Below, in pieces: positions 3-29,619 of a DNA stretch of 29,619 bases. The notes under the pieces were generated by a model that searched no databases, was not told the origin of the DNA, and saw nothing but the letters and a program-made list of their open reading frames with translations. The position numbers and the translations under genes were made by a program. Source of the DNA: Cytauxzoon felis (taxonomy: Eukaryota > Apicomplexa > Aconoidasida > Piroplasmida > Theileriidae); contig JAIQCW010000027.1 of NCBI GenBank assembly GCA_020283715.1, forward strand, positions 1 to 29,619, in the 5' to 3' direction. The first letter of the stretch is position 1; every line of letters starts with the position of its first letter.

Positions 3-3000
3 TCAATTATAACTTGCTGCATCACGCCATTGTATAAGTAAATCAGCACATGTGTCACGTTCTTTAGCATTCTTACATTTAATCGGTAATACAAATCCAT
101 CCGGGAAATCCTCTGTAGCCGATCCATATATACAAAAACATGTCTGAGCTGTAAAACGCCTCGGCTCCTTTGTATTCGCCAACTCCAATAATGGATGCTT
201 TATACCACGAGATATATTACGTATACGCAAAATCGGTATCTTATAAGGATAATCCTCCTTTTCTGGACCCCACTCAAAACAATTCAAATCCTGAGTTGAA
301 CGCCACCTTATATTCACCAATACAACCTCATTGTTCAATAACGCCTTCAATTTACCTCCAGTCCTCAATGAATCCTTCGATACATCCGGTAAATCATGTA
401 TACCATGAGGATACGGATCCACATTCCACTCCGATAATGAAAAATCGAATTTACCTAAAAGAATGAAGATGAAGAACGTAGCGAAGCATGAGCGAGATGT
501 TGTCCACTCCACCTGAGGTCCAATCCAACTCTCTTCGTCTTGCAGACAGCTTCTCTATTTATCTCCCCTTCCAGCTCCCGTAGATCGCTTCCAGGTTCCA
601 CTTGAGGTTACATATATTACATCATCCTAGCACCATCTTCCATCATTCCCATGATGGATGATCCATCACTACCTTCAATGATCCCTGGGAGTGGCTCTAC
701 TCTTTGAGGGAAGTAATTAAAAGAGCTGTCTGCAAGACGATGAGAAGGTTGATTATAACCTCGTGTGGATAGAATGATATTATCATCATCCTAGCACCAT
801 CTTCCATCATTCCCATGATGGATGATCCATCACTACCTTCAATGATCCCTGGGAGTTGCTATACTCTTTAGAGATAGGTAATTAAAAGAGCTGACGGCAG
901 GACGAAGAGAGGTTGTTATAACCTCGTGTGGATAGAATGATATTATCATCATCATAGACCATGAGGTCGTCGGCATATAACCTCAAGTGGACATCACCTC
1001 AGTCGCAAGCTCCTTCGGCCACGATCTCTGGGAGTGGCATTACCCTTTAGGGATAGGTAATTATAAGAGCTGTCTGCAAGACCAACGGTGGTTGTAACAC
1101 GTCGTGTAGACATCACCTCACTCATTTCATTCGTCCCTCAGTCGTTTCACTCCTTCGCGTTCGTTCGCAACAAACCTGTAGATTCGAGTGGTAAATCAGC
1201 GTTATTTCCGATTGCTTCTACGAGTGTATTACATCTGTTTCTAAAATTCTTTTCTTCTGGTTTTTTATTTGGCATGTATTGTATGGCGTCTTTATATTTC
1301 TTGATTAAATCTCTGGTTACTAGGTTATTTCTGACATCTGGCGGTAGTGTGAGTGTATTTTCGAGTAGTACGGTGATTAAAAGTAGCATATTTTGTGTAG
1401 TACCGAAATTTATGAGAAATGCTTCAACAATTGACGTGAATCCATTAACGGTTAACGTCTCTCCACCAAGTCCACATGATAGGAAATAGGTCGCTATACT
1501 AATTACAATCTTTTGTAATCTAACCATTTTTTGTACAGAATCCCCAGTGGCGGCAAAACATACAACTTTTAATAAATTATCAACATCATCCTTCTCCATA
1601 CCTATATTTTCCCAAGCAGGTGCATCAGAAGTTAATTTAGATTGTGTCATATTAAGCATACCAAGTATAAGTCTAGAGCATTCAATAATAATATTAGATT
1701 GATGTTTCATTTTAATAAATACATTTAATAATGTATTAAGTCCATCTTGACTACATAGTAGATAAACCATTTCATCAGTAATAATTAATTTACGTAAACA
1801 TCTTAATGTAGCAATTAATACTTCAGTTAATTCATTACCTTGTTGTCCTTCAAATGTAAGTATATTTAATAATAAACTATATATATCCATTTCTAATAAT
1901 TTTATAATACCATCATTAATATTTGTTTGTAATGTTAATAAATGTATACCAATAATTAATATTTCAATATCATAATTCATACGTTTCATAGTTTTTATAA
2001 TTAAATGTATACCATTATTATTTAAAAATAATATACAATTAGATTCAAGTCTACATAATGAAGATAATATATCAAATAATAAAAATATAATTTTACCATC
2101 AATAGATTCTTGTTTTAATATATTTAATATTGGTAATAATACAATAGAAAATTTTTCCATATTTTCAAATTTATTTTCCATAACTAAATTTGATAATGTA
2201 GATAAACCAATTTTTAATTTTAAATCATTATAATTTAAATCTAATTGTTTTAACCATAATTCATATGATTCATTTATTTTAGCATCTAAAAAGAAAGATA
2301 CATTTTTAGTATATAAACCTAAATTAGATATAGCTTTAAAAAGAGATTCAATACATCTCATAGCTAATTCATTATATTTACCAGCAAATGATTTAAGACA
2401 ATTAACTAATGCTAATGGTGCACCAATTTTACCATATAATTCTTTTAATATATCATTTTTATATAATAAATTACATAATAATATACTAGCACCATTAATA
2501 ACTTCATATGAATCATTATATTTATTTAATACTTGTACATTTAATTGAGGTCCTTTTAATGAAACAAATCTATCAGAACTTTCTTTATTATCAACACAAG
2601 TATTAGCTAATGCTAAACAAATATTAGTAATAATAGCATTAGAACCATCGTTATTCAATTGTTTTTGTAATAATTCCAGTATAGCATCTAATAGCTTCTC
2701 TTTACATATTTGTGATTTAATAGCTGGAACAACAGCCATAGAACCAACTAAAAATAATGCATCAGGTAATAATGATGTATCTGTACATGTTAATAATATA
2801 TTTTTTATTCTAGATACCATATTACATTTAATCATTAAATCTAAATGACCTTCAGCAACAATTTTACGTAATGTACGAAATGTTTGACGTATTAATCTAG
2901 ATGATAAATATTTTTTATCATCATAAGCATTCCATATATCAATAACAGTTTTAATAACATTATAATTTAAATATACACGTCTATTAACAGCAGTAAATTC

Positions 3001-6000
3001 AACTAGTAACAATGCATTAATTAAAGCAGCTTCATGTACATTATCATCATCAGATGAGACAACAATACCTTTTTTATAATGTAAATTATATAAATATAAA
3101 TCAATACATGTCAAGACATCTTTTTTTGATATAAATGATACAACAAAATTAGGATCTAATACACCACAACATAATGATGATACATTACCATTTAATATCT
3201 TTAAATCATTTTGATTTTTAAATATAATTAAAGCAACATCTAAATAACCATTAGATACTAAATATTTACAATTTTCTACATCTTTTAATAATAATTCAAT
3301 AGATAATAAACCATATATTAAATCATCACCATTTTCATCAATACTAGATAAATTACCCTTTTTAATATACTCACCCATAATATTAATTAAGAAATCTAAA
3401 TCATCCTTTAATAATGGTATATCATTAATACTAATAGATAAACCATCATTACGCTTACCATCTAATTCCATATATACAGTCTTACATGTCTTACGCTTAG
3501 GTAAATCATTCATTATCAACTCTAATATCTCAACGACCTTAGCCGCAAGACCCAATGCTTTTTGGAGGTCCTGAGGTTCTCCGTCTGAGGTCGTCCCACT
3601 CGCCGTGGTGGCTTCCCCACTTGAGGTCGTCCTGCCGTCAGCTCCTTTATTTACTTCCCCCTCCGCTTCCCGGTGATCAGCTGCGGGTCCACTCGAGGTC
3701 TTGTCCTTACCTCCACTTGAGGTCTTATCTTTACTTCTGCCACGATCTACGGGAGTGGCTCTACCCTTTAGGGATAGGAAATTGGAGAAGGCACCACGCT
3801 TAGTGGAAGACGAGGCCGCAGAAGTAGCTGTAGAAGAAGATGCAGAAGAAGGTGCAGAAGCAGAAGGAGCAGATGTATCGCCTAACTTCTGTATATTATT
3901 GAGTGTATTATTAAGATTGGGTATATTATTGAGTATTCTACCTACACCTTCAACTTTGGCTGCATCTAGTAGAAGGTTACAAAATTCATCGGCACAATCA
4001 ACATCTTTATCTAATAGACCATCTGTTAATATATTTGGTAATATATCTTTAAGTACTAATGCACCATCTTGTGGTGATTGTTTAATCATTGCTATTAAAC
4101 CATATAATAATTCTAATAATAATTCTTTTGAATTACGTGATGATTCATCTAATAAATCATTTAATTTAGTTAAAGCACCAGTTTTTGTTAATGCTAATAA
4201 AAATCCACCTACTAATGCTGCACCTACAAATTTAACAAAATCTAATGATGTTATACCATCAAAACCATTTGAATTTAACATTGACATTACATCTTCTATA
4301 ATAGATTCATCATTTATATAACCACCTTTTAATACTGATGATACAAAATTCATATATGTTACTCTTCTCTCTTCTGATACTTCACCTATACATACACGTT
4401 GTAATGCAACAACAGCATCTGGTATACCAGAAAGACCACCACCACCATATTCTGCTAATTGTGCTAATAATTTCATACCTAATACTACAACCATATCATT
4501 ATTTTTATTTGCTACAATTACATTTACAATTTTAATAACCACATCTATATTCAATGCTCTAGTCTCATCCAATATCACCCTTGTACCATTATTCATTGGT
4601 AATGTTGATGATTCTGGTGATGTAGAAAGATATAATAAATATTCAAGTATAGAATGACATACATCAGAATTCGTCTTATAACGCTCTAAAAAATTTATAG
4701 TATTAAGCATCAACTTTGATGATTCAGATTGCATTAAATCTGTTGTATATACATTTACAACACATGATGAAAATATCCTATAAGCATGACATAAATATTT
4801 TATATTCGATGCACCAAAATCTGTACCTACAATTGTAGATAACTGTAATAAATTATTAGATGATGCTACTGCCCATGCACCAAATTGATCCTCATAATCA
4901 TCAAATACTGCATCACATAATCTTCTTGATACACATGATGAATTAACCATCAAATTCTGATTATCTGCTGCAAATGCCATTGCTGTATTCAAACTTGTTA
5001 AAAATACTTCAGTCTCTGATAATGCCTCTACCCTATTCTCTAATGGTGTTAATAAATACATAGCAAGACGTATACATAATTTATCAACCTGTTGTGCCAT
5101 TGTATCCTCACGCTTCTCTACAACCTGTATAACATTCCTCATCAATGCCCTAATTTGACATTCTGCACCTAATATACCAAATAATAAACCACATGCATGA
5201 GCAATCTCATCATTATCAACATGAATCATCATCACTGATGATATTACATCTACAATACCAGATTGATTCAAATCATCCCTAGTTTCTAAACATGCCATTT
5301 CAACCAATAGATTTAATAAACAAACTGCACATGTAGGTGAATTCTTATTCGCATTCAATGCATCCTTTATATTACCAAATGCCTTTGGGAGAGATTTATA
5401 TCCTAATAACCTCTCTCTACCAAAAAAACTCAAACATTCGGCAGATAATGATACAAGCTCCTCATCACTAGAATGCATTTCTAATACCGAAAACAATCTA
5501 GATATAACCTCAGTCTTTTCAGAAAAATGACGCAATAATACATCATCCCTTGTCCTCAACAACTCAGAAAGAGCTAATAATGAATTCAATATCATGGTAC
5601 TGTCCTCCGATAACATGGATACCAATCTATTAACCAAACCCAAAAAATCCGAATTTGATACCAACTTCTCAATCTTTCCAGGAGTTGAACTCAATACAGC
5701 TATACATTTACAAATAGCACGAATAACACCAGGTGAATTAATAAATACAGAAAATGAAGCACAAATTTTTGAAAATACATCCTCATTAAATGCAACTTCT
5801 ACATTAACCTTGTCATGATCCAATAATACAACCAATGTCTCCAATGAAGATACTGCAGCATCTTCTGTATGACTCGATACCTGAGGCTTTAAATTAGAAA
5901 ATATACGCAAATCAAGACTAGTAAATTTGACCCTTGTAGAATATACTAATCCTATACGATTCTGACACATATTACTCGTTAATTGAGCTAATTCATATAA

Positions 6001-8757
6001 TGCAGAATCCAATAATGGTTTACCTGTTAAGTCACCCTCTTCAACAAGAGCTACAGCATCAGCCAATTTAACATTAGCCAATACCCAATCACAAGACTTT
6101 ACAACAACATCACCAATCTGTAATCTTACAGCTATTCTTATAGCTTCCCTAGAGACTAACAATTGATTTATAGATGCAAGAGTTGTATGTACAATTTCGA
6201 AATCCTTGCTATTCATAGCAGCACCAAGATCATCAATTAAACGCTGTAATTCACTCTCTAATGCATCAGCTGGCATTAAAATTGATAATAAAGTACCAAT
6301 CATAGTCTTAAGCCTCTTATTTCTAGTATGAGTCCTATTAACAGTACGTAAAAGTTGGAAACAATGACAACGTTTTAAACATTCTACAGCACTCTGATCC
6401 ATTTTAGCACATGTACATAAAAGAGATATACCTAAAATTTGACATTGGAGATACATTGGAACAGTGGATAGATAATTTACAATACCCGCCAATCCACCAG
6501 TAGATATCAAAGCATCAAGACCAGCTTTACCAGTCACCTGAATAAAATTATTAAGCGCTTCAATACATGCAATTTGAGCCTGTCTAACATCACTATATTT
6601 CCTCATTACCTTATTTACACACTCTACAGTTTCTATACATTGATCCTCAGTATAGACCCTCTCTACAGCACATAATTGCTTTAAAGCACCTGTACAATGT
6701 AGAAGAAAATTATCATCAACATCCTCTAAATCTATAATCCTCTTAACTTGAGGTAACATTGCCAAGTCTTTTACACTAGATATCATGAGCTGACACTCGT
6801 TACCATCACCAGATGCTAAAATTGTTGCATGTAAAGCAGCCCTTGTTAATCTTGTTCTACCCTCAAAACTAGAACCCTCAATCCAGGATGATACAGTCTT
6901 CATTACATGCGGTAGAATACCATTTGCAGCTATAGTCGGTCTCAATCTTACTATACGATATAAACCCGTAACTGCAGCCAATTTACGATATGTTACCTCA
7001 ATATCATCCTTAGAATTATTCAATACACTCGATACATCAGACATATACTTCTTTACATCCTCCTCTGTTACCAAAATTTCCAATACCTTTACAGCCAAGT
7101 CAATTATAGCCTCATTATCCTTATGATCCAACATCAATTCTAATATCGATGTAGTTACAGTCACATCTCCAGATGTCATATACTGTTGTGCACCAGGTGT
7201 AGCAGCAAATGTTAATAGTAAATGTAATGTCTCCATACAAAATTTAGCATCCTTACAATTATGACCAAGAGAAATCGCTATACCCTGAAGGCCACCATAC
7301 TCGTATACAGTAGATAAATCTTTAACACAACTAGAAAATCTATTAAGTACTTGAATATTATTCATATGATATGCAAGATTATCAACATGATATTGACAAC
7401 ATGTTGATATAATCTCAATAACCTTATTCTCAACAAATGTATCTTGTAATTCTGGTACCTGTGTAGCTACCGATACAAAATTCATTAAAGCAGATGCTAC
7501 AACCTGATCCTCTGATAATTGATAAAGGATAGGTAATGCTATACCAACGGCATTTGTACTTTGAAATACCTTCCAATCACAACAGACTAATTGTGATAAT
7601 GCATCAGCAATAGCACTAACTGCTAATGAATAAGACATTGATGCAGCAAGAGCATTGACTAATGATTCTACACCACCATTAACAACAACCTCTTTACCAA
7701 AGGTAGGATTAGCAGATATACCAGCCAACATCCTAGAAGCACCACAAATTACATCCGCAAATTCAGCATTTGATTCCAATTTAGGTATAGTTTTATTAAT
7801 AAGATCAATCAATAATGGTACAGCTCCAGATTTCGCCAACTCATCAGAAATGGTTGTTATATATGATAAAGATCTCAGTGTATTAACCGCAGATCTATGC
7901 TCTGATGTTCCAGGCTCAAATGTCTGTAGACATGTCAAACTCTGTTGAAGTTTTTCAGTGTTAACAATAGATTTTATAATGTCACTAGCACGATTCAAAA
8001 CTATTTTTGATGATTTAAAAGATTCTACAAGTGGTATTATCATCTCCAAATGCCCATCATCCAATACACGAGAATCTGATAACAGTTTCAATACTTTAAA
8101 ACAATTTTCAACCAATGAAACTGTATTGCTCAGATTACCCTCAGATAATTTCGATGTTAATTTCAACACCCCAACAACACCTCCATTGCTATTTATAGCT
8201 GCAGCTCCAGCAGATGATTGCGCTATAAAACAAAAACATAAAAGAACCTTATCAGCAATCGAAACTGCCGTAACCTTATCAAGAGACTTACATAAATCAG
8301 GTACAATCGCAATACCACCATTGGGTAGTGACTTTATAGAACACAACTTCTCTACAAAAGTATAACAATAATCCAAAATTAACTCCTCTGTAGGACATGT
8401 ACTCAAAATCTTCTCTATTGCATTCAAAGCACCGTCACCCAAAAGCTTTTTAACCACATTTGGATCATCCTCCTCTACACACCCATGCGCCATAGCCGAT
8501 AAAATCTGACTCGAACATACACATAAATCTTCATCATCACTAAAATTCTCAACAGCCGTTACAATACTCGGTACAACATTCCTATTCAATGCATCCAATG
8601 AATTCTCCTTAAATAATTGCAGAGAAGGATTACATAAATCCGATAACGACCTCAAACCAAATATCAACATCTTCTTAAACTTTTGATGCTGTATAATTGA
8701 AGATACAGCAGTGGCAACACCACTATCAGCTGGACGTCTCATACGAACTGATACCAT
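3..8757 (-). CDS. Giant armadillo-repeat protein with C-terminal PH-like domain (2 exons)
   Basis: Exon 1 is 8757-1176 (ATG at 8757) and exon 2 is 454-3 (TGA at 3-5): 8034 nt, 2677 aa. Exon 1 encodes a long alpha-solenoid of irregular ARM-type helical repeats (recurring patterns such as VVNGGVESLVNAL and TSGDVTVTTSILELM), interrupted at about residues 1630-1735 by a Ser/Ala-rich stretch and repeat-derived sequence. Exon 2 encodes a PH-like fold at about 2561-2674 (LVNIRWRS, then FEWGP, closing in a helix ending LLIQWRDAA). The join CTACAG|GTTTGTTG ... CATTCTTTTAG|GTAAATTC keeps frame; exon 2 has no in-frame ATG, and the hydrophobic residues before it are the translated pyrimidine tract. If the intron is not used, exon 1 stops at 1147 after nine extra residues. 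The donor GTTTGT is unusual but SLP2 appears to use it too. ARM proteins usually scaffold other proteins and PH domains often bind lipids; the actual role is unknown. ORF certain, join likely. Confidence 0.85.
455..1175. repeat. Intronic copies of the modular repeat, with a 164-bp tandem duplication
   Basis: This 721-nt interval is the putative last intron of the ARM-PH gene. From about 503 to 1135 it is made of modules shared with the other repeat loci: tccacctgaggtcc, cttgcagacagcttct, cttccagctcccgtagatcg, the palindrome gatggatgatccatc, ctttagagataggtaatt and gagctgtctgcaagacga. A unit starting atcatcctagcaccatcttc at 621 starts again at 785, so it is a direct tandem duplication of period 164 bp, with small differences between copies. 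The 3' end (about 950-1135) is more degenerate. Confidence 0.8.
3566..3806. repeat. Copy of the modular repeat inside the ARM protein coding sequence
   Basis: The modules seen elsewhere in introns (ccacttgaggtc, cctgccgtcagctcctttatttac, cttcccggtgatcagctgcgg, gccacgatctacgggagtgg, ccctttagggatagg, and a ccac...gtgg end) run through the large open reading frame without a stop or frameshift. On the coding strand they give roughly residues 1651-1731 of the protein, including LSLKGRATPVDRG, KTSSG twice and REAEGEVNKGA. The segment is hydrophilic, GC-richer than the surrounding AT-rich codons, and follows a Ser/Ala-rich tract, so it is probably a disordered insert in the solenoid. It could alternatively be a retained, in-frame intron. 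Confidence 0.8.
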
Positions 8758-9451
8758 TTTGTAATAAAAATTATAATCCTATTCCTTATATATAAGCGGT
8801 TTAATCACAACACATCTAATCACCGATACATACACTTACTATACATAAACATTTAATATACACATCAACGTGAAATCATATCGAGATAAACTAATAATTG
8901 ATCACTTGTCATTTTATCTATTCCTTATATATCTGTCTAATAAGTTTAATATATACAAATAACACGATCATTACACACACATTTAACAATAATTGACCAG
9001 TTAAACTCTATATATTAATAATGATTCTTATACCATTACTTACACATCGTACCACAGCATATACACATCATGGGGCATGACATCGACACATATAACGTAC
9101 ATGACCAATCAATACATTGATGCAAACAACGAATCAATACATATTAAGCATTTGTGATAGATGGGTGTCATTGTTTCATTGAAGAATCAGGTCTAACCTG
9201 CATTTTATGCACCATACAACACATCAGATTACCGTCGCATAAATATAACATTCTCCCATTAAGATTACCTATTTTCGTCAATTTTAATCTCATTTAATTA
9301 TCATTCATCTAAAATTATCTATTCTTCATTGATTGTTTACATTTTACATACATCTTGTTAACCCAAGAATAACACATTACCCCTACTACACTAATCTGAA
9401 TAATACTACTAAACATCATGTACATATATTTAAATCAATATATTAAGGACG
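8758..9451. other. Intergenic region between the ARM-PH gene start and the COX2A end
   Basis: An AT-rich stretch of 694 bp that must carry the promoter of the ARM-PH gene. The sequence ctattccttatatat occurs twice (8779-8793 and 8918-8932). The modular repeat is absent. A 36-codon minus-strand ORF (ATG at 9425, stop at 9315) has a hydrophobic stretch (SSIIQISVVGVMCYSWV) and could be a tiny membrane protein, but nothing else supports it. I see no tRNA or other RNA gene. Confidence 0.5.
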
Positions 9452-11461: not shown

Positions 11462-13313
11462 TTAAAGTCCATCCGAATCATCAGAAAAATCACTCTGTAA
11501 TTCCCAGGGCGACTTAGGTTCATTATTATCAGTAGAGATATTTGTATTATAACTAAAACTATTGTCCCATTTATCACCATCAACTTTATCTATAAAAGTA
11601 ATGTAATTTATTTATAAATAGATCATGTTACCTGTACTTTTAATAAATTTTGAGCGTAAATTCTTATAACGTTGCAATAAATTCTTATGATTAATATCGA
11701 ATAATATACAATAACAATAAGAGTGTACAGATATAATAACAATATCAAATGCAGCTTTGAGGGTATAATCCAACTCAACAAGAGACTTTAGTGGTATAAC
11801 CGACAAATGCATAACAAAAGTCGGTAATGATATAACAGAACTCTCATAACCTTTTAACATATTCAATAAACATATGGAAAATGAATAAGTTAATAACATC
11901 TGCTGTGAACCTGATGTGATCAATGTCATTAATATCATCATCAAAAATCCACCATTCTCAATTCTCATAAGTAGTCGTAATAACAATGGACGCAATGGAT
12001 AAATCATCAACAACGCAAAACCAAATATACCCATTGATAACTTTACGACACGCTTAAAATTAATATGAGTCAATATCAAAGATGATACAGTAATCTTTGC
12101 CAATCTATAGAAATTAATTATTATTATTATTGAACGATAACATTGATTTGTAGAATCCACCTGAGGTCCTGCCGTCAGCTCTTCCAATTACCTATCTCTA
12201 AAGAGTAGAGCCACTCCCAGAGATCGTGGCGGAAGTGTAGTATATTTGACCTCAAGTGGAACCCGCAGCTGATCTCAGGGAAGCGAAGGGGGAAGTAATT
12301 AGAAGAGGCTCCACGCCGAGTGGAGAGACCTCAGGTGGATTGTAATTCGAGTGGAGATTCTTCTGTTTATGGATCGGAGTTGGTATAAAAGTGTATGTAT
12401 GTGTTATATAAACATACTGTGAGTATAAGAATAGTAGATAATTGTAAAGTTGGTTGAATTGATGTTTGGATTTTAATATTTGGCTTTTGAAATTTAGTGC
12501 CATGAGTAGAAGTATGATTAATGCGATGATGCAATCGAATGAGAATTTATGATTATCATCATTGGTGGATGTATTGAGTGCTTCGGTATTTGGTGAAGTT
12601 TGTTCTACGATATCTTTGAAGATTGAGACATGTTCTAGGGTATCTCCGGGTATGTATACACCTTTATATATCATCCAGAGTATGGATAATCCATTAGAGA
12701 AGACGAATATTGGAAATAGTATGTTCATATTTAATAGATTGGCGAATCTAGAGCTATTTAATAATAATGGTGTGACTACGCAAACAACAGTAGAGAATCC
12801 ATAGATGGATGATAAGATGAGTCTGATGGATACATATTTTATATATTCAGATTCACTTTTACTTTTAACATATTTACAGAATAGAAGTTCAGCATATGCA
12901 CTAGTATATACTAAAAAGATCATAAAGATGACTGATGTGATGGGATTGATATTACTATTAAAGTAATAAGAGATATATAATAGAATTGAAGTAATAATCA
13001 TAATAATTTCCGATGTGATGAGGATAATTAAATTTAAATTTAATATTCTACCATTAAAGGTAAAGAATTTCAATTTTTTATTATTAGAATCATCATTTAA
13101 CCTATCATTAATAAGACAAAGTATAGGTTTAAATAACCATATATATGGTAAATATTTATATATATGTAGATTATCTAATTTATTATTTACTATAATATCC
13201 TGTAACCAGCACATGTATATTGTATACAATGCTTCAGCTTTAAATAGAAATCCTAAGAATAAATAAAATTTTAATGTCTGCGATGATGCTTTAATTATCA
13301 TTTTTTCTATCAT
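11462..13313 (-). CDS. 12-TM transporter of the major facilitator type, possibly folate-biopterin (BT1) family, 3 exons
   Basis: Exons 13313-12418, 12104-11632 and 11589-11462 join to 1497 nt, 498 aa. Splice sites are TCACA|GTATGT ... ATTTCTATAG|ATTGGC (313-nt intron holding the modular repeat) and ACAG|GTAACA ... TTTTATAG|ATAAAG (42 nt). Both keep frame; the first restores membrane helix 8 across YSQ|LAK. About twelve hydrophobic helices are visible in two groups of six, with a hydrophilic central loop (GDTLEHVSIFKD to NDDNHK) and an acidic C-terminal tail ending DFSDDSDGL. The stretch YLPYIWLFKPILCLINDRLN after helix 1 resembles the KPLYG..SD region of BT1-type folate/pterin transporters, but the similarity is weak, so the substrate is open. 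The ATG at 13313 begins the first helix-containing frame. Confidence 0.75.
12156..12356. repeat. Modular foldback repeat in transporter intron 1
   Basis: A compact copy. It begins tccacctgaggtcc (12156) and its inverted match gacctcaggtgga lies at 12327-12339, followed by a second ttcgagtgga. Between are cctgccgtcagctcttccaa, the tctctaaagagtagagccac module, gagatcgtggcgg, a central tgacctcaagtgga, cagctgatctcagggaagcg and the short palindromic ccacgccgagtgg. No target-site duplication is evident at the flanks. Confidence 0.85.
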
Positions 13314-13528: not shown

Positions 13529-16500
13529 CTATTCATCATCTCCAACTGGTGGCTTCTCTGGCTGTAATGTTATCAAATCATCTATCCTCAATATTGTTAT
13601 AGCTGCCTCTGTAGCAAATCTAATAGATTTTATCTTACTAACCGTAGCCTCTAATACACCACTCGTTAAATTATTACGTATTTTACCATCATTCAAATTC
13701 AAACCATACCATTTATAATTATCATAAGAACCATTAGGCTTATTATGAGATAATTGAGCCTTAGCATGATGAGCACGCAATAATGCCACCAACTCGGTAG
13801 AATCCAATGCAGCATTCATAGCCAACGTCTTTGGAATTATCAACAATGCCTCAGCAAACTCCGCTATAGCCAACTGCTCACGAGAACCCTAAATAAATAA
13901 TTATAATAATAGATAATTATTAGAACCATTGTTTCACTCGCCGTTCCACTCGAGGTCCAATCCAACTCTCTTCGTCTTGCAGAGAGCTCTCCACCTGAGG
14001 TCCAATCCACCTCTCCATTCCACTCGCCGTGGAGGCCTCTTTTATTTACCTACCTCTAAAGAGTATAGCCACTCCCAGAGATCGTGGTGAAGGTAGTGAT
14101 GGATCATCCATCATGGGAATGATGGAAGATGGTACTAAGGATGTGTTGGATGTAACCTCAAGTGGAGAACCTGGAAGCGATCCACGGGAGCTGGAAGGGG
14201 AACTAAATAAAGGAGCTGTCTGCAAGACGAAGAGTAGGTAGAGTAGAAGATAGTGATCGAACCTCGTATGGAAGTGAATATATATTAATGGTTGTGATCA
14301 AGGTCTGGTTTGAAATCAACTTACGAGTGTTCTTGCGAAGTTATCGAGATAGATTGAGAGTGCTGTTTCGACACATCCGCCGCCTGGTACGAGTGAGTCT
14401 TGTTCGAGTGCTCGGCTAACGGCGCATAAAGCGTCATGTACAGATCGTTCTACTTCATCGATCATAAATGTATTAGCGCCTCGTAATATAATAGTAGCGG
14501 ATTTAGAACTTTTACATCCTTCAAAAAAGAGGCAATCCCAATCACCAACTCTACTTTCATAAACTTTATTACAAGTACCCAATGAAGAGGATAAGAATGA
14601 TTCATCACCTTCAACTGTAGCCATTGTTAATACAACAGTTCCTATAAGGAGTAAATATAAATTTTAATACAACAATAATGATCTATTAATATATCATTCA
14701 ACATACCACCTGTTAATTTAGCAATACGTTTCATATCCTTTTTAGTTACTCTTCTAGCAGCAATTACACCAGCTTCAACAAAATATTTAAGTGACATATC
14801 ATCAATACCCTGAGTAGTCAATACAACATTAGCACCAGATGCTAATATCTTCTCAACACGCTCCTTAGTTATATCCTTTTCCCTATAAATTATTTTATAA
14901 TACATATTACATATCATGTCTTAATACAGGTTCTAGTCCTGAGATCCCGATAATCTTCCACTAGGCGTTCCACTTGAGGTCAATCCAGCTCGCATTCTCT
15001 TGCAGAGAGCTCTTTTATTTAGTTCCCCTTCCAGCTCCCGTAGATCGCTTCCAGGTATTCCACTTCCACTTGAGGTCCTATCCTCACTAACCTCGCCACG
15101 ATCTCCGGGAGTGGCTCTACTCTTTAGAGATGAATAATTGGAAGAGGCCTCCACGGCTAGTGGAAATGAGAGTAGTACTGAACCTCAAGTGGAACGTCGA
15201 GTGGAAAAGGATTGGATATCAAGTAGAGGTAAAAATATATGGACTTCGGCTTGTTAGTAGAGTTGTTAAATATGTATTATAACATACTTGAGTCGTATTT
15301 TTTCAAGTTCTTCGGGGTTATTAACTTGTATTTGTACGCCGAGATGTAGACGATAGTGTTTGAGTGGGAAGTCTAGTAGTGCAATTTTGGCATTGGTAAC
15401 GGCTAGTGGCATTCCTTGAGCGGCTCTTGCCATCATTATAGCATATCCATCTACTAAATGTGATTCTTTGGTTGATTTTCCATGTACTTTAAGTATATTA
15501 ACTGCGTTTACGGGATATTTAACATCACCAGAGTCTGATGTATACTTTACAGACTGTATGGCTTGTACTACAATTTGTGAGAAGTAATCTGAATCAAATC
15601 CAATCAATTTCGATGATAATGTCGTCTTGGCAATATTCAACAACACTTCTTTTCCCATCTTATCCAAACGACAACTCAAATGCTCTTTAATATACTTTAC
15701 ACTCTCCTGTAGATGTTATGAAGAAATGAATTATAATACAACCCCTGGATAACAGAAATATAATTCACTCATGGATAACGGGAATGATGGATAGGAGACC
15801 AATCTCCAGTATGACCAGTATCATTAGGAGGATCATTAGGAGTTTGACTATCAGGAGTAACGACAATCTCTAGATTAAACTTACTTTAATGGCAAGTTTA
15901 TAACCTGAAATAATAGAAGTAGGATGTATACCAGCATTTGTAAGTTGATTAGCACGTCTCAATAATTCAGCAGCGACCAAAACTACAGATGTTGTACCAT
16001 CACCAACCTAAAAATAAATATATCATAATATATTATAGATACAATTACACTTGAGGTACATCCTGACGTCAGCTCTTCCACCTGAGGTTGTCTTGCAGAC
16101 AGCTCTTTTAATTACCTATCTCTAAAGAGTAGAGCCACTCCCGGAGATCGTGGCGGAAGTGAAGGTAGTGATTGGACCTCAAGTGGATTACCCGTAGCTG
16201 ATCTACGGGAAGCGAAGGGGGAAGTAAATAGAGAAAGCTGTCTGCAAGACGACCTCAGGTGGAGAGCTGTCTGCAGGACAAGGAAAGGATATCATGTTGA
16301 ACGCCTAGTGGAAGGAGACGACCTCAGGTTGAATGAACATCAATGGCAGATCACTATATATTATGTAATAATCATACCTCTTGGTCTTGTAGTTCGCTTA
16401 AATCTACGAGTAATTTGGCTGCGGGGTGTTGTACTTCTAATTGTTTAAGCATTGTGGCTCCATCATTAGTAACAGTTACATCTCCGAGATCATCTACAAG

Positions 16501-17443: not shown

Positions 17444-17475
17444 TTAAAAATATACATTGCGATATTGATTTGAAA

Positions 17476-19308
17476 TTATTCATGTAAATGACATAAACAT
17501 CGTTGTGTTGGTTTCGGTACATCCGAATCTAATGATACCTTTACATCTAATACACTTTTATTTACAACCATTTTATTCTTCTCATCACCCTCTCTTATAC
17601 GCTCTAATTCTCGCCATGGAGCTAATGGAATTTGATCATACATTAATATATAAACTTACAATAATTTGATTCATATCCCATTAAATAAAATCCTAATATT
17701 AGTACACCCGTTAAAAAATATAATCCACCTGAATTTTAATATATTATAATCTAATATAACAAACATACCAACTACAAATACCAAAATCTCAAAAATCGTC
17801 GCCCTTGTACCCCAAGATCTAACTGGAGCTATCAATATCGATTTTTTAGCCTTCCACGCTAGAGATGGCCATAAATTATTCGTCACATACAAATTATAAC
17901 GACCACTTGACATCTTATCATATATCACACCATACGGCTTTAAAAATGTATTCTCATGAGGATTCAATAACCATGATTGATAATACGGATTCGATAAATC
18001 CATCCATAAAAATCCATCCGCATGAGATGATTTATTCAACTGTATAATTATTTTATCGTGATATTTAAATTTGAACTAGAAGTCCACCCGAGGTCCAATC
18101 CACCTCTCTTCTAGTCCACCTTCTATTCGTCCTGCCGTCAGCTTCTCTATTTACCTATCTCTAAAGAGTAGAGCCACTCCCGGAGATCGTGGCTGAAGTT
18201 TAGTGATGGATCATCCATCACGGGAATGATGGAAGATGGTGCTAAGGATATGTTGGATGTAACCTCGAGTGGAACCTGGAAGCGATCTACGGGAGCTGGA
18301 AGGGGAAGTAAATAGAAGAGGCCTCCACGGCTAGTGGAAAAGAGAGGTGGATTGTACCTCGGGTGGATGAAACTCAGTCATACTTCCTTCGACTACGTTC
18401 ATTCAAGTTTCAACATACGGATAGTGTGGTGAATAGGTGAACATTGATTTTATTATATAGTGCGATTTTGATGCATTTATCACTGAATCCACTGATGAGT
18501 GTACCGTATCTATCAAATTGAAGTCCACTGGTTCCATCTGGGCAGACTTCAAAGTTATCTGTCATGATGGTGGCTGGGAGTGTACCGCAAGGATATGCGG
18601 GTAGTTTATATTCGGGAACGTCATGATAATTTTCACACATTTTATGATTGCCATTGAGTGTATTAACGCCATTGATACAGCGCAGATCGAGTATTTCTTC
18701 AAATGTTTTATAGGCTGTAGGATGAATATGATGTAAAGTATTTTCAACATACTGGAGCATTTGTGTGATGCGATAATATCAGGTTCGGTATCATAGATGA
18801 CATGTTTATGTGTGATATAAAAGTCGGAGATTTTGTAGTAGACATAAATGGGTGGTTGAAAATCTTCCTTTAGTGTGAAGGGCAGTGGTCCAGAGTAGTT
18901 TTCATTATAGGGTATTTCGATTTGTTGTATATTAGAAAAGATATGTAGGCATGTACCGATGAGTAGTAATAGAATACCAAGTAGTATGAAGATAGAAGAG
19001 GCTACACATGGTGTATATACTTTGAGTATACCATATTTCATATTAAGATCCATTTGTTTGATACGTTCTATACGATTCTTATATTCTGTATCAATTTCTT
19101 TATTTGATGGTAGCCATAGATATTGTTGTCCTATCGGTATTAATAGATCATTAAGATCATCTTGTCTATATACTGTAGTTGATTGTATATCTGGTACTTG
19201 TAATCCATCGTTAGTTGTACTTGCTTTATCACAATCTGTCATATATGCTAGACTTTTTCTATATACTTCTGAATCTACCCTTTCCATTGTTGATTTTGTT
19301 TGTGACAT
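17476..19308 (-). CDS. CDC50/LEM3 family protein, P4-ATPase (lipid flippase) beta subunit, 5 exons
   Basis: Exons 19308-18753, 18714-18419, 18039-17769, 17728-17660 and 17621-17476 total 1338 nt, 445 aa. CDC50 proteins pair with P4-ATPases, letting them leave the ER and flip phospholipids. Two membrane helices flank a large ectodomain: TM1 at about residues 100-125 (CVASSIFILLGILLLLIGTC) and TM2 at about 366-390 (FEILVFVVGGLYFLTGVLIL). Family marks include PPIYVYYKISDFYITHKH, the cysteine-bounded YPCGTLPATIMTDNFEVC, and the pre-TM2 block SGRYNLYVTNNLWP followed by KSILIAPVRSWGTRATIFE. Splice sites are mostly GTATGT or GTAAGT with AG acceptors; introns are 38, 379, 40 and 38 nt, and the 379-nt one holds a modular repeat. 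Read without splicing, the last three exons look like a separate short gene starting with TTG at 18039. The N-terminal tail of about 95 residues is long for the family. Confidence 0.9.
18082..18368. repeat. Modular repeat in CDC50 intron 2
   Basis: It begins gtccacccgaggtcc and ends gtacctcgggtgga, an inverted pair matching even at the variant bases (ccg/cgg instead of ctg/cag). Inside are cctgccgtcagcttct, the tctctaaagagtagagccac core, gagatcgtggc, gatggatcatccatc, aacctcgagtggaa, aagcgatctacgggagctgg and gaggcctccacggctagtgg. The matched substitutions at the two ends suggest the ends evolve together. Confidence 0.85.
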
Positions 19309-24613: not shown

Positions 24614-24892
24614 CACTACACAAATTATTCATCACATCTTCCAAATATCACTTTCCTTATACTGACCACTACTATAATCACCTACTACAATCGGGCCCCC
24701 TAACTATCTAATGAAATCGACAATTAGGAAGTATTCACGATATTTCAACAATGTTATTCTACCTTTTAAATTTACTATTCATATATTCCATCAATTTAAT
24801 CCTGTATATCATTACAATGGACCCATACGACGGACCGCGGTAAATATCAACTACTGACTCTTAATAAATCAGATTATAAAATATATTAAATA

Positions 24893-27800
24893 CTAAACTA
24901 CATTAATTTGTTCCTTATTTGTTGGTTGATTACTAAATATGTCATCAGAATCCCTTGATTCAGGTTTGGTATTTAGAGCCTTGTAAATCGATACCGCCTG
25001 TGTTATAAAGTCATTACCCCTAGTCAAATCATTCGGTATAATGATTGTATTGCTACTCTTAGCCAATTTACTAAAGGCTTCTATATATTGTTCTGCAAGA
25101 CGTAAAGCAACAGCCTCACCCATACCTAATTTAGAAATAATAATTAGTTTTAATAATGATCAATGAAAATTATATTCAATAGAATATTAATATAAACATT
25201 TCCACCCGAAGTCCAATCCTACTCATCTTCCACTATGTGTTATACCGTAGGTCCTGCAGACAGCTTCTCTTTTTACCTCCCCCTCCGCCTCCCCGAGATC
25301 AGCTGCGGGTAGTCCACTTGAGGTCCAATATTACTACCTCCGCCACGATCTCCGGGAGTGGCTCTACTCTTTAGAGATAGATAATTGGAATAGCTCTCTG
25401 CAAGAGAAGGAGAGGTGGATTGCATCTCAGGTGGAGGGTTAAGTTACAACTCTTTCATTGTTATGATTATGTGTTTTAATTCTATTGTATAACGTACCCG
25501 ATTTTTTTAATGTAGAGGTGAGTGTTTCGAGGCTGTATGCTGTAGCATCGGCTTTTTGTCGTTGTGCGATTGCTTCACCTTCGGCTTTTAGAATTTCTAT
25601 TTGTCTTCTACCCATTGCTAAATTAATTTCACTTTCTCGATCACCTTCGCTGCGTAATATTTCTGCACGTTTCATACGTTCAGCTTCAGCCTATTTGAAA
25701 TTAATATGATTTGTATTAAAATTTACATCCTTTTGGATATTTTTTTAAAACATAAAGTACAATTAAACCATGAACAACCTCCACTCAATGAATTTCACTG
25801 TTGATCTACAACTCCATCAGCAGCGGCTTGCAGGAATTGCAATAACCAATCAATCACTAGAAATATAATACCAGCTGTTAATATAATCCCATTTAAATAT
25901 TTAGCAATGCATCCATGAGGAAAGTGTATTATAGAAAAGAAGATGAGAATACATAAGAATACGGGATATAAAGGCTCACGTAAGATGCCACAATGTATGA
26001 CCACTATCCCATTTACTATTTGGTCCTATTGCAGGGATATTAGTGCTGTAATCAATATCCAATAGTGGAGATTTTTATATGGTGAATGATATAGGATAAA
26101 CACATTGAAAACCCCAACATAGCAATAGGAGACCAATCAACTCCATTACCCGCCTTCTCCTTTTTCCCACCAGTAAAATCAATATCAAATAATTTCTTTA
26201 TACCTGAGTCTGCTGTTGCAGCAGAGACTATTGCTGCAAGAAATCCAAATAGAATAAAGCCAATCATTGTCCATATAATAAATGAACCCTCCATTGACAT
26301 TGACGTACAGAAGGATGTAATACCAATAAAATCTGACAAGAGTATACAACTACTAGCCAAGGCTTGTGATGTAGCAGCTTCTTTTTGAGCTTTAAGAACA
26401 AACACTGCTATTGCACTAGATATTGCAATTCCTCCAAGTTAAAGCAATTCATCTCACCATCCCACTCGAGGCCCAATCCATACGACTTCCTTTCCACTCG
26501 CCGTGGAGGCTCTTCTATTTAGTTCCCCCTGCGCTTCCGCGAGATCAGCTACGGGTAATAAGACGATACAATAATGTTTGCCCTTATTATATTATTGACA
26601 TTGAGAGTATTGGTCATTTCAACTTTAGGAGCATCCGATATAGTTGTGGTAGCAGTTGTCATATGATCGCCATCTTTTAGAGTGGAATAAGGGAGAGGAG
26701 TACCAGTATAATCAGTTCCTTCCTGTTGCCATGTTTTAGCGCCGGTACCTTTAAATCTATACAATTTAACAGTCTCGCTAGATCCAGGTGTATATTTAAA
26801 TAATTGATTTCCAATAATCTTTGTCTTAAGTACAGTCTTATCATTATAATTTCCAAACATTAGGCATGTGTAGATGGGAATTAGTCCGAGAATTGAGAAT
26901 ATTATGCCTGTGAATATAGGTGAGTAAGGGGATTCCGTATGACATATGATGAAAAACCAAAGGAATATGCTGGAGAATGATACACCAGCGATAAAGGTTG
27001 AAGTAATAACAGGAGCTTTCATTTCATGATCGGTCTGATAAAATTTTTTCATCCAATTATTATCCCAAACTCTGGTAAGTTTTCCTGCATCTTCTGTTAA
27101 TTTCTCGGCTAATGCAACATTTCTATTGTATTTATCATCATCGACAGAAACATCATTATAATCTGTACCTTTAACAATTGTAACTTCAGTGTCACCAACT
27201 CTTTTTTTATGATCCCTAATATGTTCAGTGCGAGGATTATCAGCATGAATAGTATTACTACTCGGATCATGTGGTCCCCATGTGTACGATTTTCGTGTCG
27301 TTGGTTGCCAATTATTATTATTAGCCGCATCGAATATCCCCTGCAATGCCCAAAATTCTATTTCGGTTGCAATATATTCCAACATTGATCAATTGTCTTC
27401 AATTTATTCCCTTAAGCAGCGACAATATTCAATCTAACTATATCATCAACTTTATTAAATTCATGCACTGGATTATTAGGATCCCATTCTAAGTTTCCGA
27501 TGTCAGCTTTAGTAAGTTGAGTACCACTTTGAGTCCAATTCGTCCTCAACTTGATTTCAGAGCTCTTCAAGGCAACCTTCTCATTATGGTTTGCAATTAA
27601 GACGGCTGAGAATATTGCAAATATGGATCTGAGAGCTAAGGAAATTCCGAAGTTTATAATTTTATTTGAATGCTCTGAATCTCCAGGATCAATGAATGCA
27701 GTTGTAAAAATCCCAAAAATAACACTCAATAAAAGGAAGAAACCGAATATACCTAAAGCTACACCACCAGCAATTTTAACATTTTCAGCTTCAGTTCCAT

Positions 27801-29280
27801 CCCAAAGTGTACTAAATTCGTCAAGTTTCTTGGCAACACCGTTATTGTTATGGTTAAGGCGATCTGCAATTTGTGTGGAAATATCGAAATTAATCTTCTT
27901 CTTATCTTCAAGAGCATCTTTATTAGCTTGATTTTCAGCTTGATTAGCACCAGTGGCGGCAGTAATAGTTTGATCACCACTCGTCAATAATTCATTGGCT
28001 GATGTTTTATTTGAGGAATGGAGAAGGAGGGAGAAAATCTGACTGATAGACAACAAAATTAGCCACGGCAAAATTTTTAGCTTGACCTCGAGTTTCATTT
28101 TCACCAGAGCCAAAATCGGTAATTGTAGTATTAAGATCGCTCTTCAATACTCTATTAACACCACTTGGTTGTGTATATTCACCGAGTGTAAACTTCTCTC
28201 GATGATTGGCGATGACAACTCCAAAGAATATTGGAATGAGGAGGACGAAGTTGAGAAAGGGTTGGAGAGGGGTTCCAAAAATGATTACGGATTTAGAAAC
28301 CCCTGGATAATAAATATGCAGAAGTATACAGAGGATAATATCTGTACACCAACTGAAACTAAAGCCACATAACAAGCATATTTAACTGCATCATTTTCAC
28401 TATTCATTTCACTTACACCCTCTACAAATTTGTTAAAAGCGCTATCAGTATTTGATGTTCTGAGATTTAGTGCGTTTGCGGCATTGTCTTTATTAGTATC
28501 ACTACCTGTCCACCCATTGCCTTTAAGTATCACCCATTCTACAAAATTTGCACCATAATAAGGTAATCTTAGATGAAGAACTTCATTCCCAGTCCACAAA
28601 AGACAGGCAAAGAACAATAAGCCTATTGTAACTTTGATATGATAAACAACTAACGTATAGTCATAGTCCTCCCAGTAATATTTTTTTATAGAAATGTTCA
28701 CACTGAAATGAGTGAATGATTAACAACCTCAAAAGTCCGTAGAAGAAATCCGTCGTTCGATGGAGATGAAAAAATGGAGAGTTACAAACATCATGAAATC
28801 AAATGAGGTATCAACATCATAAAACCAAGTAATAACATAGCAAGGCTACCTAAGATTTTGTTAACCTTCTTACGTTGTTCCTCATTTAGAGCCATTTTTA
28901 CATATCGTTGGTTCCATCTTTACACATCATTCTAATTAACCATCTTCATTTATTTTAAAGTTAAAAAAATATCCGAAATCCAGAACAATCATAATCCTTC
29001 AACAAACCTGTTTCTCCATAGCAGATGTAATATTCTTTGGGAGTGTAATATCTCTAATCTCATATCTCAAACACGTTATTCCCCAAGATTTGGATGCAGC
29101 ATTAATGTTCTAGTAATTTAAAATTAATATTAACAATAAACATACATTAACAATTATATTATTCAAATTATCACGCTCAAGAAATGTATTATCCAATGAT
29201 AATTTACCCAATTCCGATCTCATTGTAGTCTGAGCCAATTGAGTTATAGCAAATATAGGATCCTCAACACCATAAGATGC
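24893..29280 (-). CDS. Stomatin-like protein 2 (SLP2), mitochondrial SPFH-family protein, 5' part beyond the window
   Basis: Four exons in the window, 29280-29146, 29109-29008, 25690-25498 and 25125-24893, give the last 220 residues; the N-terminal exons lie to the right. SLP2 is a mitochondrial inner-membrane scaffold that binds cardiolipin and prohibitins. Matching text: ASYGVEDPIFAITQLAQTTM, then ELGKLSLDNTFLERDNLN, INAASKSWGITCLRYEIRDI, AEAERMKRAEILRSEGDRES and AEQYIEAFSKLAKSSNTIII. Joins keep frame: AAT|GTATGT..AG|AAC (36 nt), CAG|GTTTGTTG..AG|GCT (3317 nt) and G|GTACGT..AG|GTATGG (372 nt, with a modular repeat). The join MEKQ|AEAERMKRA reproduces exactly the family's continuous helix. 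The 3317-nt intron is far outside the size of any other in the window and contains membrane-protein genes on the same strand. An upstream intron from 29281 also contains a modular repeat. Confidence 0.88.
25202..25438. repeat. Modular repeat in SLP2 last intron
   Basis: It begins tccacccgaagtcc and ends catctcaggtggagg. Internal modules are gtcctgcagacagcttctct, cctccgagatcagctgcggg-type sequence, gtccacttgaggtcc, gccacgatctccgggagtgg, ctctttagagatagataatt and gctctctgcaagagaagg. It lies wholly inside the 372-nt intron 25126-25497. Confidence 0.85.
25795..26438 (-). pseudogene. Fragments of a multi-pass membrane protein inside the SLP2 intron (unit D)
   Basis: Two open segments in different frames. 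The first (26438-26052) reads LGGIAISSAIAVFVLKAQ, then SFIIWTMIGFILFGFLAAIV and NGVDWSPIAMLGFS: at least two hydrophobic helices and no in-frame ATG at its start. The second (about 26025-25795, TGA) reads PLYPVFLCILIFFSIIHF and NGIILTAGIIFLVIDWLL, two more helices. A GT-AG intron (donor near 26069, acceptor gattacag near 26031) could remove part of the gap but does not by itself bring both frames together. It may be a decayed gene or a gene with several tiny introns I cannot resolve. I do not recognise it, and its similarity to units A-C is not convincing. Confidence 0.4.
26456..26560. repeat. Partial modular repeat between membrane-protein units C and D
   Basis: It contains tcccactcgaggcccaatcc, ccactcgccgtggaggctctt, ctatttagttccccctgcgc and gagatcagctacgggtaat, that is, only the outer half of the element. 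It overlaps the end of the reading frame of unit C: the TAG stop at 26549-26551 is made by the gctgatc..ctacgggta module. Confidence 0.75.
26549..27385 (-). CDS. Membrane protein of unknown function, family unit C (nested in the SLP2 intron)
   Basis: An intact ORF of 278 aa from ATG 27385 to TAG 26549. It has a long polar N-terminal half (MLEYIATEIEFWALQGIF, then many Asn, Asp, Lys), two hydrophobic helices (FSSIFLWFFIICHTE and IFTGIIFSILGLIPIYTCLM) separated by a short polar turn, then GNYNDKTVLKTKIIG and a polar tail ending NNIIRANIIVSSYYP. The turn, the N.(D/E)K...LK motif after the second helix and the tail (..(I/V)R.NI(I/V)) align with unit B and partly with unit A, so they are paralogues. 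The last residues and stop come from the modular repeat. It begins 26 bp after the stop of unit B. It may be one of the fast-evolving multicopy membrane families of piroplasms; I cannot name it. Confidence 0.6.
   Translation of the reverse strand: MLEYIATEIEFWALQGIFDAANNNNWQPTTRKSYTWGPHDPSSNTIHADNPRTEHIRDHKKRVGDTEVTIVKGTDYNDVSVDDDKYNRNVALAEKLTEDAGKLTRVWDNNWMKKFYQTDHEMKAPVITSTFIAGVSFSSIFLWFFIICHTESPYSPIFTGIIFSILGLIPIYTCLMFGNYNDKTVLKTKIIGNQLFKYTPGSSETVKLYRFKGTGAKTWQQEGTDYTGTPLPYSTLKDGDHMTTATTTISDAPKVEMTNTLNVNNIIRANIIVSSYYP
27412..28098 (-). CDS. Membrane protein of unknown function, family unit B (nested in the SLP2 intron)
   Basis: The open frame runs from ATG 28098 to TAA 27412, 228 aa. It starts with a hydrophobic stretch (ILPWLILLSISQIFSLLL), then a polar region rich in Asn, Lys and Asp, then two helices (GVALGIFGFFLLLSVIFGIF and FGISLALRSIFAIFSAVLI), IANHNEKVALKSSEIKL, and a tail with LEWDPNNP ending DDIVRLNIVAA. 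The second helix and IANH.EK are shared with unit A, and the tail with unit C. The first 92 bases overlap the 3' end of unit A in another frame, so the true start is uncertain; the body might instead begin at an acceptor (acatcag|CCAATG) about 100 bases further in. Confidence 0.55.
   Translation of the reverse strand: MKLEVKLKILPWLILLSISQIFSLLLHSSNKTSANELLTSGDQTITAATGANQAENQANKDALEDKKKINFDISTQIADRLNHNNNGVAKKLDEFSTLWDGTEAENVKIAGGVALGIFGFFLLLSVIFGIFTTAFIDPGDSEHSNKIINFGISLALRSIFAIFSAVLIANHNEKVALKSSEIKLRTNWTQSGTQLTKADIGNLEWDPNNPVHEFNKVDDIVRLNIVAA
28007..28701 (-). pseudogene. Membrane protein family unit A, apparently frameshifted
   Basis: Two frames together align with unit B. The first (28701-28285) has a helix (IKVTIGLLFFACLLW), a polar Asn-rich region, and KYACYVALVSVGVQ..SSVYFCIFII. 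The second, one base out, continues YPGVSKSVIIFG, FVLLIPIFFGVV, IANHREKFTLGEY, and a tail ending in FVVYQSDF. The switch falls near 28300-28312. A 47-nt GT-AG intron would fix the frame but would delete most of the helix aligned with unit B, so a true frameshift, or a sequencing error, is more likely. The first frame opens at a GTG after a possible acceptor (catttcag|TGTGAAC), so an upstream exon is expected, perhaps the 34-codon ORF at 28791-28895. Confidence 0.5.
28791..28895 (-). CDS. Small ORF with one membrane helix; possible first exon of unit A or a tiny gene
   Basis: ATG 28895 to TGA 28791, 34 codons: MALNEEQRKKVNKILGSLAM followed by LLLGFMMLIPHLIS. The polar, charged head and single hydrophobic helix look like real protein. 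A donor at AT|GTTGAT joined to the acceptor before unit A (cag|TGTGAAC) would keep frame with unit A, but the donor is weak. As a stand-alone protein it resembles the general type of single-helix microproteins of ER or mitochondrial complexes; I do not recognise it. Confidence 0.35.
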   Translation of the reverse strand: MALNEEQRKKVNKILGSLAMLLLGFMMLIPHLIS

Positions 29281-29383
29281 CTAAAATGATTGTATTAAAT
29301 GAATGATGTAATCTACATCCAAAGCCTAATCATAATTCACTTTCCATTGTTACCTGAGTACCAATATACCTTTATTACTCTTG

Positions 29384-29619
29384 CAGAGAGCTCTTCTAAT
29401 TACCTCCCTCTAAAGAGTATAGCCACTCCCAGAGATCGTGGCGGAGGTAGTGATTGGACCTCAGGTGGAGACCTCAAGTGGACTACCCGCAGCTGATCTC
29501 AGGGAAGCGGAGGGGGAAGTAAATAGAAGAGCTGTCTGCAGGACGAAGGTAAGGTTGGAGATGAGGTTAGTGATTGGACTTCGAGTGGAAGTGGAACCTG
29601 GAAGCGATCTATGGGAGCT
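29384..29619. repeat. Modular repeat at the right edge, probably in an upstream SLP2 intron
   Basis: It reads cttgcagagagctcttctaa, ctctaaagagtatagccac, cccagagatcgtggcgg, gacctcaggtgga, gacctcaagtgg, cccgcagctgatctcaggg, gagctgtctgcaggacga and tggaagcgatctatgggagc, then runs off the window. Exon 29280-29146 begins with a clear acceptor (cattttag|GCATCTT), so this repeat lies in the preceding intron unless that intron is very short. Confidence 0.8.

Follow-up and report, generated by a model that had tools for sequence, protein, structure and literature searches.

The 29,619-nucleotide (nt) window analyzed here, a contig of the piroplasm Cytauxzoon felis (JAIQCW010000027.1), contains a short repeat that we interpret, with a probability of about 0.68, as a non-autonomous palindromic mobile element that is built of exchangeable hairpin modules and kept in exons almost only when compatible with the reading frame. 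The unit would consist of an arm, a left core, a spacer, a right core and a second arm, lying between CCACYYGAGGT-type ends and their inverse. It would have reached thousands of sites within this piroplasm lineage, and at those compared its arrival would postdate the divergence from Theileria equi. Copies in introns or intergenic DNA would persist either way round, those in introns being tolerated in both orientations because splicing removes them, and copies in coding exons would persist almost only when their own open frame joins the open reading frame (ORF) of the host, being retained as inserts rich in serine, threonine, glycine and glutamate. If so, an estimated one-tenth of a piroplasm genome would be a single palindromic element, in a phylum whose genomes are said to hold few mobile elements, and this would be a eukaryote in which selfish DNA supplies conserved proteins with in-frame segments at large scale.

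The modules extend far beyond the contig in which the earlier note described them. Within the assembly (8,623,106 bases in 181 contigs, the window being contig C18), the 20-mer core TCTCTAAAGAGTAGAGCCAC has 1,942 matches with at most 2 mismatches (953 forward and 989 reverse), and its reversed control has none on either strand (0+0). Patterns for the left (45 nt) and right (42 nt) cores match 141 and 161 times, respectively, in a 277-kb sample of the assembly, and neither the left pattern nor the first right pattern has any match there when reversed; because the reversed controls give zero, a chance origin of the matches is excluded. The sample (C9:1-138700, C4:1-59500, C26:1-39700, C28:1-10000 and the window; 277,519 bases, or 3% of the genome) is not random, its contigs having been picked after the positions of core matches were known, and its core density is 1.49 times that of the genome as a whole. 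Eight loci of 2.4 to 3.0 kb (L001 to L008) served for motif counts only. Masking of repeated words marked 213 intervals in the sample; the 178 that had 60 or more covered bases were retained as elements, and the other 35 were dropped. These 178 elements occupy 38,800 bases (14.0% of the sample), with masked lengths that are mostly between 60 and 300 nt (median, 223.5 nt); scaling by core count yields a genome-wide estimate of about 3,700 elements, or 9.4% of the genome. The densest of the five sampled contigs is C28, with 15 element intervals in 10 kb (L033; C28:1-10000). A 24-mer of the core had 0 matches each in scans of viral and of prokaryote contigs, as expected for a eukaryote. An assembly artifact or contamination was considered and ruled out: the copies differ, occupy many contigs and respect reading frames.

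When copies are oriented by the left core, the order of their parts can be read by eye (32 of the 82 copies of 200 to 300 nt were examined in this way). The 5' part runs from a CCACYYGAGGT-type end through a pyrimidine-rich stretch, an arm and YYAATTACC to the left core TCTCTAAAGAGTAGAGCCACTCCCGGAGATCGTGGC, and the 3' part runs from a purine-rich spacer through ACCTCRRGTGG to the right core CCCGCAGCTGATCTCAGGGAAGCGGAGGGGGAAGTAAATAGA, an inverse arm and an inverse end. The best-matched copies form one long hairpin (C9:7364-7573, -128.9 kcal/mol). Among copies of 180 to 300 nt, the mean folding z-score is -5.0 for 18 intronic, -4.7 for 10 intergenic and -3.2 for 14 exonic copies, with one exonic copy reaching +0.85. 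Repeat families and folding scores agree in supporting the earlier description of the repeat as foldback-like and modular, with inverted arms. Some copies with long spacers (e.g., C9:30411-30743) have an extra repeated spacer block of the AACCCGGAAGAACAG / CCCCTAAGAACAGG type, encoding the peptide VNPEEQ..VQPLRTGNLPGGTKN, which is a possible additional module.

The arms come in interchangeable types. Of 245 arms with the form NNNN-TGC-NNNN, 134 have perfect 4-bp stems, as against 48.5 expected when partners are shuffled, and these perfect stems are GTCT/AGAC (89), CCAT/ATGG (24) or CTCT/AGAG (21). CCAC..GTGG constitutes a further arm type, and the PAVS arm (GTCCTGCCGTC) displays no self-complementarity. 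The type of arm at one end of a copy is independent of that at the other end (same type in 19 of the 101 copies typed at both ends; 21.7 expected), indicating that modules reshuffle, and the number of modules at element ends varies when read by eye.

Pairing within the cores is maintained by changes on both sides of the stems. In the left core, pair 11-18 is TA in 95 and CG in 43 of 141 copies, and pair 12-17 is CG in 112 and GC in 23; in the right core, pair 7-21 is CG in 113 and GC in 35 of 161 copies, and pairs 6-22 and 8-20 also covary. Across noncoding copies, Watson-Crick pairs fill 420 of 432 stem cells of the left inner hairpin, with 35 two-sided changes, and 354 of 378 stem cells of the right hairpin, with 90 two-sided changes, counts that mix inheritance and separate events because two-sided changes are common to many copies. 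Slid controls for stem pairing gave 0.04 to 0.64, and positions 4-24 of the right core, when tried as a pair, did not pair (0.33). In the left core, conservation extends to the outer stem, but this stem hardly varies, with 2 two-sided changes in noncoding copies, and so says little about pairing.

Near-invariant core positions differ per site by 1.7% in intronic, 2.5 to 3.5% in intergenic and 2.5 to 2.6% in exonic copies, and 125 whole copies have a median identity of 79% to their best match within the sample. Cores that barely differ within copies that are only 79% identical suggest that the cores are either constrained in the mobile unit or homogenized and that the remainder is a mosaic. The low divergence of the intronic cores relative to that of whole copies, together with the compensatory changes in the hairpins, would also suit a functional RNA or DNA element, such as an aid to splicing or packaging, that the host selects and keeps in introns. 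This is the least probable of the explanations weighed here, as copies run both with and against the direction of the gene, 288 introns lack a copy, and copies also occur in intergenic DNA and in exons.

The placement of copies relative to genes relies on a gene finder written for the sample and trained on it (an order-4 codon model with splice matrices, in which element bases were scored as neutral), a home-made tool whose individual gene calls may err. Predicted introns have donors of AG|GTATGT or GTAAGT and acceptors resembling TATAG or TTTAG. In the model for CCT-alpha, three element-bearing introns are spliced out to leave a protein of 547 amino acids (aa), which aligns to residues 4-540 of solved CCT-alpha, and this gene model is considered verified because the alignment is gap-free at the three spliced junctions. 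Under these models, 113 of the 178 elements lie in introns, 33 in intergenic DNA and 32 in exons (102, 29 and 30, respectively, when at least 90% of the element's length is in a single class), and 146 fall outside ORFs. The enrichment in introns that the earlier note wished to see tested is evident in the densities per kb of non-element DNA, which are 3.30 in introns, 1.05 in intergenic DNA and 0.18 in exons. Intronic copies are sense in 43 cases, antisense in 62 and unassigned in 8 (binomial test, P = 0.08).

Such a concentration in introns (102 of 390 carry a copy) raises the question of whether the repeat is an introner, whose insertion creates a new intron with splice sites that are either carried or recruited. 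The non-element remainder is longer in element-bearing introns than in the 288 empty ones (median, 124 nt versus 44 nt), and T occupies the second position of the downstream exon in 59% of the former versus 38%. In addition, the mask may undershoot the true ends, as in the ARM-repeat gene described below, where an exonic insert of about 273 nt is masked for 170; the G+C content of intron flanks climbs to 0.35 to 0.42 away from the splice sites, and part of these flanks may be decayed element. The positions of the copies nevertheless make an introner highly unlikely. Mask edges lie within 10 nt of the donor in 3, of the acceptor in 7 and of both in 0 of 102 introns (median distances, 57 nt to the donor and 62 nt to the acceptor), so the earlier proposal that the repeat seeds introns is not supported. 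The flanks look mostly unrelated across copies, a few having a ATAACCGAAATGT-like word (45 of 102 introns, by eye); apart from the T noted above, exon-junction letters and phases are near those of the 288 element-free introns; and 32 exonic copies remain unspliced in the gene models. Because edges are far from the splice sites and the junctions are ordinary, the long remainders are read as room for splice signals together with unmasked element edges, not as the birth of introns.

Exonic copies turned out to be frequent, at 32 of the 178, and almost all of them share a single orientation and frame, a feature overlooked by the earlier reading. Their orientation is sense in 30, antisense in 1 and unassigned in 1, which differs from that in introns (Fisher exact test, P = 5e-9). 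Sense exonic copies share one reading frame and specify variants of a common peptide, some having only one half of it; two of the 32 (C4:32000 and C26:9986) extend beyond the ends of their exons, with stops there. Core-to-core distances divide evenly by 3 for 26 of the 27 pairs that are exonic and sense, versus 37 of the 85 noncoding pairs. In a six-frame search of the genome with a 53-aa piece of the peptide, in which the best 150 of 4,329 candidates were scored (a choice that favors in-frame copies), 56 matches fell in open frames no shorter than 200 aa (up to 3,670 aa), 93 in frames shorter than 160 aa and 1 in the range between. Hosts recognized among the 10 host exons scanned include GCN1-like, XPG-domain, FAINT-domain and gamma-tubulin-complex proteins. 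Judging from the sequence, the exonic inserts are presumably translated.

Comparison with T. equi bears on the age of some of these insertions. RPB1 is 90% identical to that of T. equi WA and 77 to 83% identical to the next four matches, all of which are piroplasms. The assembly spans 8.6 Mb, with a G+C content of 31 to 34% in five large sampled contigs; the T. equi genome is 11.6 Mb with a G+C content of 39.5% (PMC3505731). At the exonic insert at 3566..3806 in the window, the ARM-repeat protein has 105 residues where its T. equi WA counterpart (62% identical across the alignment) has 14, such that the insert and a neighboring Ala/Ser-rich stretch add about 91 residues. This insert is absent from all 9 homologues aligned, of 23 found (one from T. 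equi, five from Babesia, one of these a probable B. duncani sequence, two from T. orientalis and one from T. annulata), which have 6 to 14 residues at that place. A GCN1/EF3-like HEAT protein encoded by one uninterrupted exon with 3,268 codons (L030:176-9979; C26:10076-19879) carries five in-frame copies. The corresponding T. equi protein (37% identical) has a length of 2,572 aa, and the inserts of 72, 77, 136, 116 and 65 residues correspond to scattered stretches of 7, 11, 27, 2 and 5 residues in T. equi; one more stretch, at the end of the exon, has an ambiguous alignment and was left out of the count. T. equi thus lacks every insert counted: the single one of the ARM gene (1 of 1) and all those of the GCN1-like gene (5 of 5). 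With respect to the possibility, raised in the earlier note, that all relatives share the same old copies, the exonic sites in two genes are specific to this lineage relative to T. equi, in a comparison confined to proteins. Old conserved intron sequence was also considered as a general account and is rejected, given the two orientations and the absence from T. equi of the exonic inserts compared. Should the element be mobile, as we infer, its copies would provide presence/absence markers for the T. equi group.

Several results, concerning the manner of movement, the reading frame and the age of the copies, weigh against a mobile element retained by virtue of its frame. The 48 copies (of 178) whose ends are defined were searched for target-site duplications of 2 to 10 nt and show no clear excess (best offsets, 0 to 5 matches; longest common word, 4.25 on average versus 4.24 after shuffling), in a test affected by the uncertain position of the true ends, which are modular. 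The transposase families DDE_3, MULE and Y1_Tnp are absent from six-frame searches of the assembly in which controls were positive; searches for piggyBac-type (PF13843) and Helitron proteins were uninformative, as their control gave no match. The independence of arm types at the two ends would be unexpected if a transposase recognized matched ends. The sole RVT_1 match reported across the assembly (L034; contig C56 near 73693-74436) lies in a 1,010-codon open frame that, by its motif, looks like telomerase reverse transcriptase, and because this sole reverse-transcriptase match resembles telomerase, it offers no support for a partner of the long interspersed nuclear element (LINE) type. LINE-like elements have been reported in T. 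equi (PMC9141347).

These findings also bear on an ordinary miniature inverted-repeat transposable element (MITE), i.e., a deletion derivative of a DNA transposon with terminal inverted repeats, cut and pasted by a transposase that has since been lost or has diverged beyond detection, and with target-site duplications that have eroded or, the ends being modular, been misplaced. Inverted arms, small size and numerous copies all favor such an origin, and of the earlier label "MITE-like foldback," the inverted arms and the foldback stand; the target-site duplication was not found. The want of a clear duplication signal, the unmatched types of the two arms of a copy, the failure to find DDE_3 and MULE in the assembly and the report, from a survey of 64 apicomplexan genomes, of no class II transposons (PMC9141347) render an ordinary MITE unlikely. 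Since no target-site duplication was found (48 copies) and the two ends never coincide with splice sites (0 of 102 introns), the repeat is not shown to be either a MITE or an introner.

The same independence of left and right arm types, along with the variable number of modules at the ends and the absence of a clear target-site duplication, could arise if modules spread by recombination or gene conversion among copies and hairpin-prone sites, through ectopic copying or slippage, without a mobile element in the strict sense. Two exonic neighbors, C9:28719 and C9:30411, are 97% identical over 315 nt, as such copying would produce. As an account of the whole family, this too is improbable, given the thousands of sites in both orientations, including exons whose T. 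equi counterparts have no insert.

With regard to frame, counting by cores gives exonic sense-to-antisense ratios of 30:3 for the left and 33:2 for the right. Among 85 full-length noncoding copies, the exonic frame is open in 21, the other forward frames in 0 and 0 and the reverse frames in 3, 1 and 2; over the core-to-core stretch (n = 77), the forward frame is open in 30 and the reverse frames in 14, 12 and 10. Because the favored frame is already open in some noncoding copies, the exonic bias is largely the outcome of selection against stops, and the surplus beyond that expected from open frames is modest (30:1 versus 21:6; Fisher exact test, P = 0.04). Moreover, the neutral scoring of element bases can favor exonic calls for open sense copies. 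Speaking against such an effect, sequence flanking the exonic copies retains the G+C pattern by codon position that is seen in exons, and for most inserts of the ARM-repeat and GCN1-like genes both neighboring stretches can be aligned with T. equi. The fourth and fifth inserts of the GCN1-like protein, which are 41 residues apart, may be one composite insertion. A search within the sample for joined flanks returned one weak match resembling an empty site (76% over 111 nt, at an intergenic copy), and there was no single recent burst, because whole copies are only 79% identical to their best match.

If the palindromic element is indeed mobile, one route, which we hold only tentatively, is that a folded single-strand or hairpin intermediate inserts without target-site duplication and that modules are then reshuffled by gene conversion; an RNA intermediate is possible. 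The repeat would then offer a hairpin system for asking how DNA spreads without target-site duplications or a visible enzyme. It is conceivable, at somewhat less than even odds, that it represents a genome-wide class in eukaryotes: a protein-coding palindromic element with a hairpin intermediate and no target-site duplication, its hairpins kept by compensatory change and its frame kept such that exonic insertions survive. It would then be a lasting supply of new in-frame protein segments for a compact parasite genome, in a phylum reported to lack DNA transposons.

The closest parallel in way of working is provided by the Rickettsia palindromic elements, to which no membership by sequence is claimed. 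These are short palindromes of about 150 bp with an open frame and a conserved peptide, found in frame in unrelated genes and also outside genes, with 44 integrations reported in R. conorii (PMC10969869). The repeat described here likewise is palindromic, encodes a conserved peptide in frame with unrelated proteins and occurs outside ORFs. Unlike those bacterial elements, it resides in a eukaryote, has a median masked length of 224 nt and thousands of copies, is mostly intronic and is built of exchangeable hairpins. It resembles MITEs in being non-autonomous and short, with inverted arms and a high copy number, but differs in that no clear target-site duplication or partner transposase was found (DDE_3 and MULE having been searched with controls), the arm type at one end is independent of the other and one frame is often open. 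According to one survey, class II transposons seem to be missing from apicomplexans, and its MITE candidates were dropped as likely false positives (PMC9141347). Introners are known from Micromonas, Aureococcus and Amoebophrya; in the last of these, a parasitic alveolate, repeated intronic elements have inverted repeats, hairpins and direct repeats that overlap exon/intron boundaries (PMC7789003). In contrast, the present element sits inside ordinary GT-AG introns, clear of the splice sites, and is also exonic. PARCEL, a protein-coding element with dyad symmetry that is thought to be mobilized within genomes and is reported in some eukaryotic algae (PMC2996958), is set apart by description, being a tandem 25-residue amphipathic motif in ORFs, whereas the copies here are dispersed and mostly intronic. 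The consulted portions of the literature on piroplasm repeats, introners, MITEs and palindromic in-frame elements hold no account of this element. The best reading is of an element that works like the Rickettsia palindromic elements, though in a eukaryote and at a far higher copy number.

Within the window, all ten loci that the earlier note had assembled from common modules were recovered as families of direct and inverted repeats (for example, arms 531-598 and 14167-14234 are 93% complementary), and masking marks 11 intervals, three of which make up the 503-1135 locus. In the gene models, eight loci fall within introns, seven of which are complete GT..AG introns. Three tandem copies at 503..1135 (- strand) lie sense in intron 455-1175 of the ARM-repeat gene (- strand), and the exonic, in-frame copy at 3566..3806 (-) is inside ORF 1147-8757 (-) of that protein. 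A copy at 12156..12356 (+) is antisense in intron 12105-12417 of a gene on the - strand. The CCT-alpha gene contains three copies: 13934..14272 (+, antisense) in intron 13889-14324, 14955..15229 (-, sense) in intron 14883-15287 and 16047..16334 (+, antisense) in intron 16008-16377. The remaining complete introns are 18040-18418 of a CDC50/LEM3-family gene, with a copy at 18082..18368 (+, antisense), and 25126-25497 of a gene that we assume from its sequence to be stomatin-like, with a copy at 25202..25438 (-, sense). The copy at 29384..29619 (+, antisense) is inside the final intron, 29281-29619, which is cut off by the contig end. The locus at 26456..26560 (-), a half copy consisting of the right module and one arm, lies among ORFs nested in a 3.3-kb intron and is absent from the intervals retained after masking.

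The stomatin-like gene, for which no Pfam match was found in the single exon scanned, has exons at 29146-29280, 29008-29109, 25498-25690 and 24893-25125 that join in frame. Its GT..AG intron at 25691-29007 (3,317 nt) contains several ORFs on the same strand that appear by eye to be membrane spanning. An Rfam scan of the window returned nothing at gathering scores. ORF 9452-10204 shows a weak COX2 match (PF00116; E = 0.0026, under the curated cutoff) and is probably a nuclear-encoded COX2 fragment.

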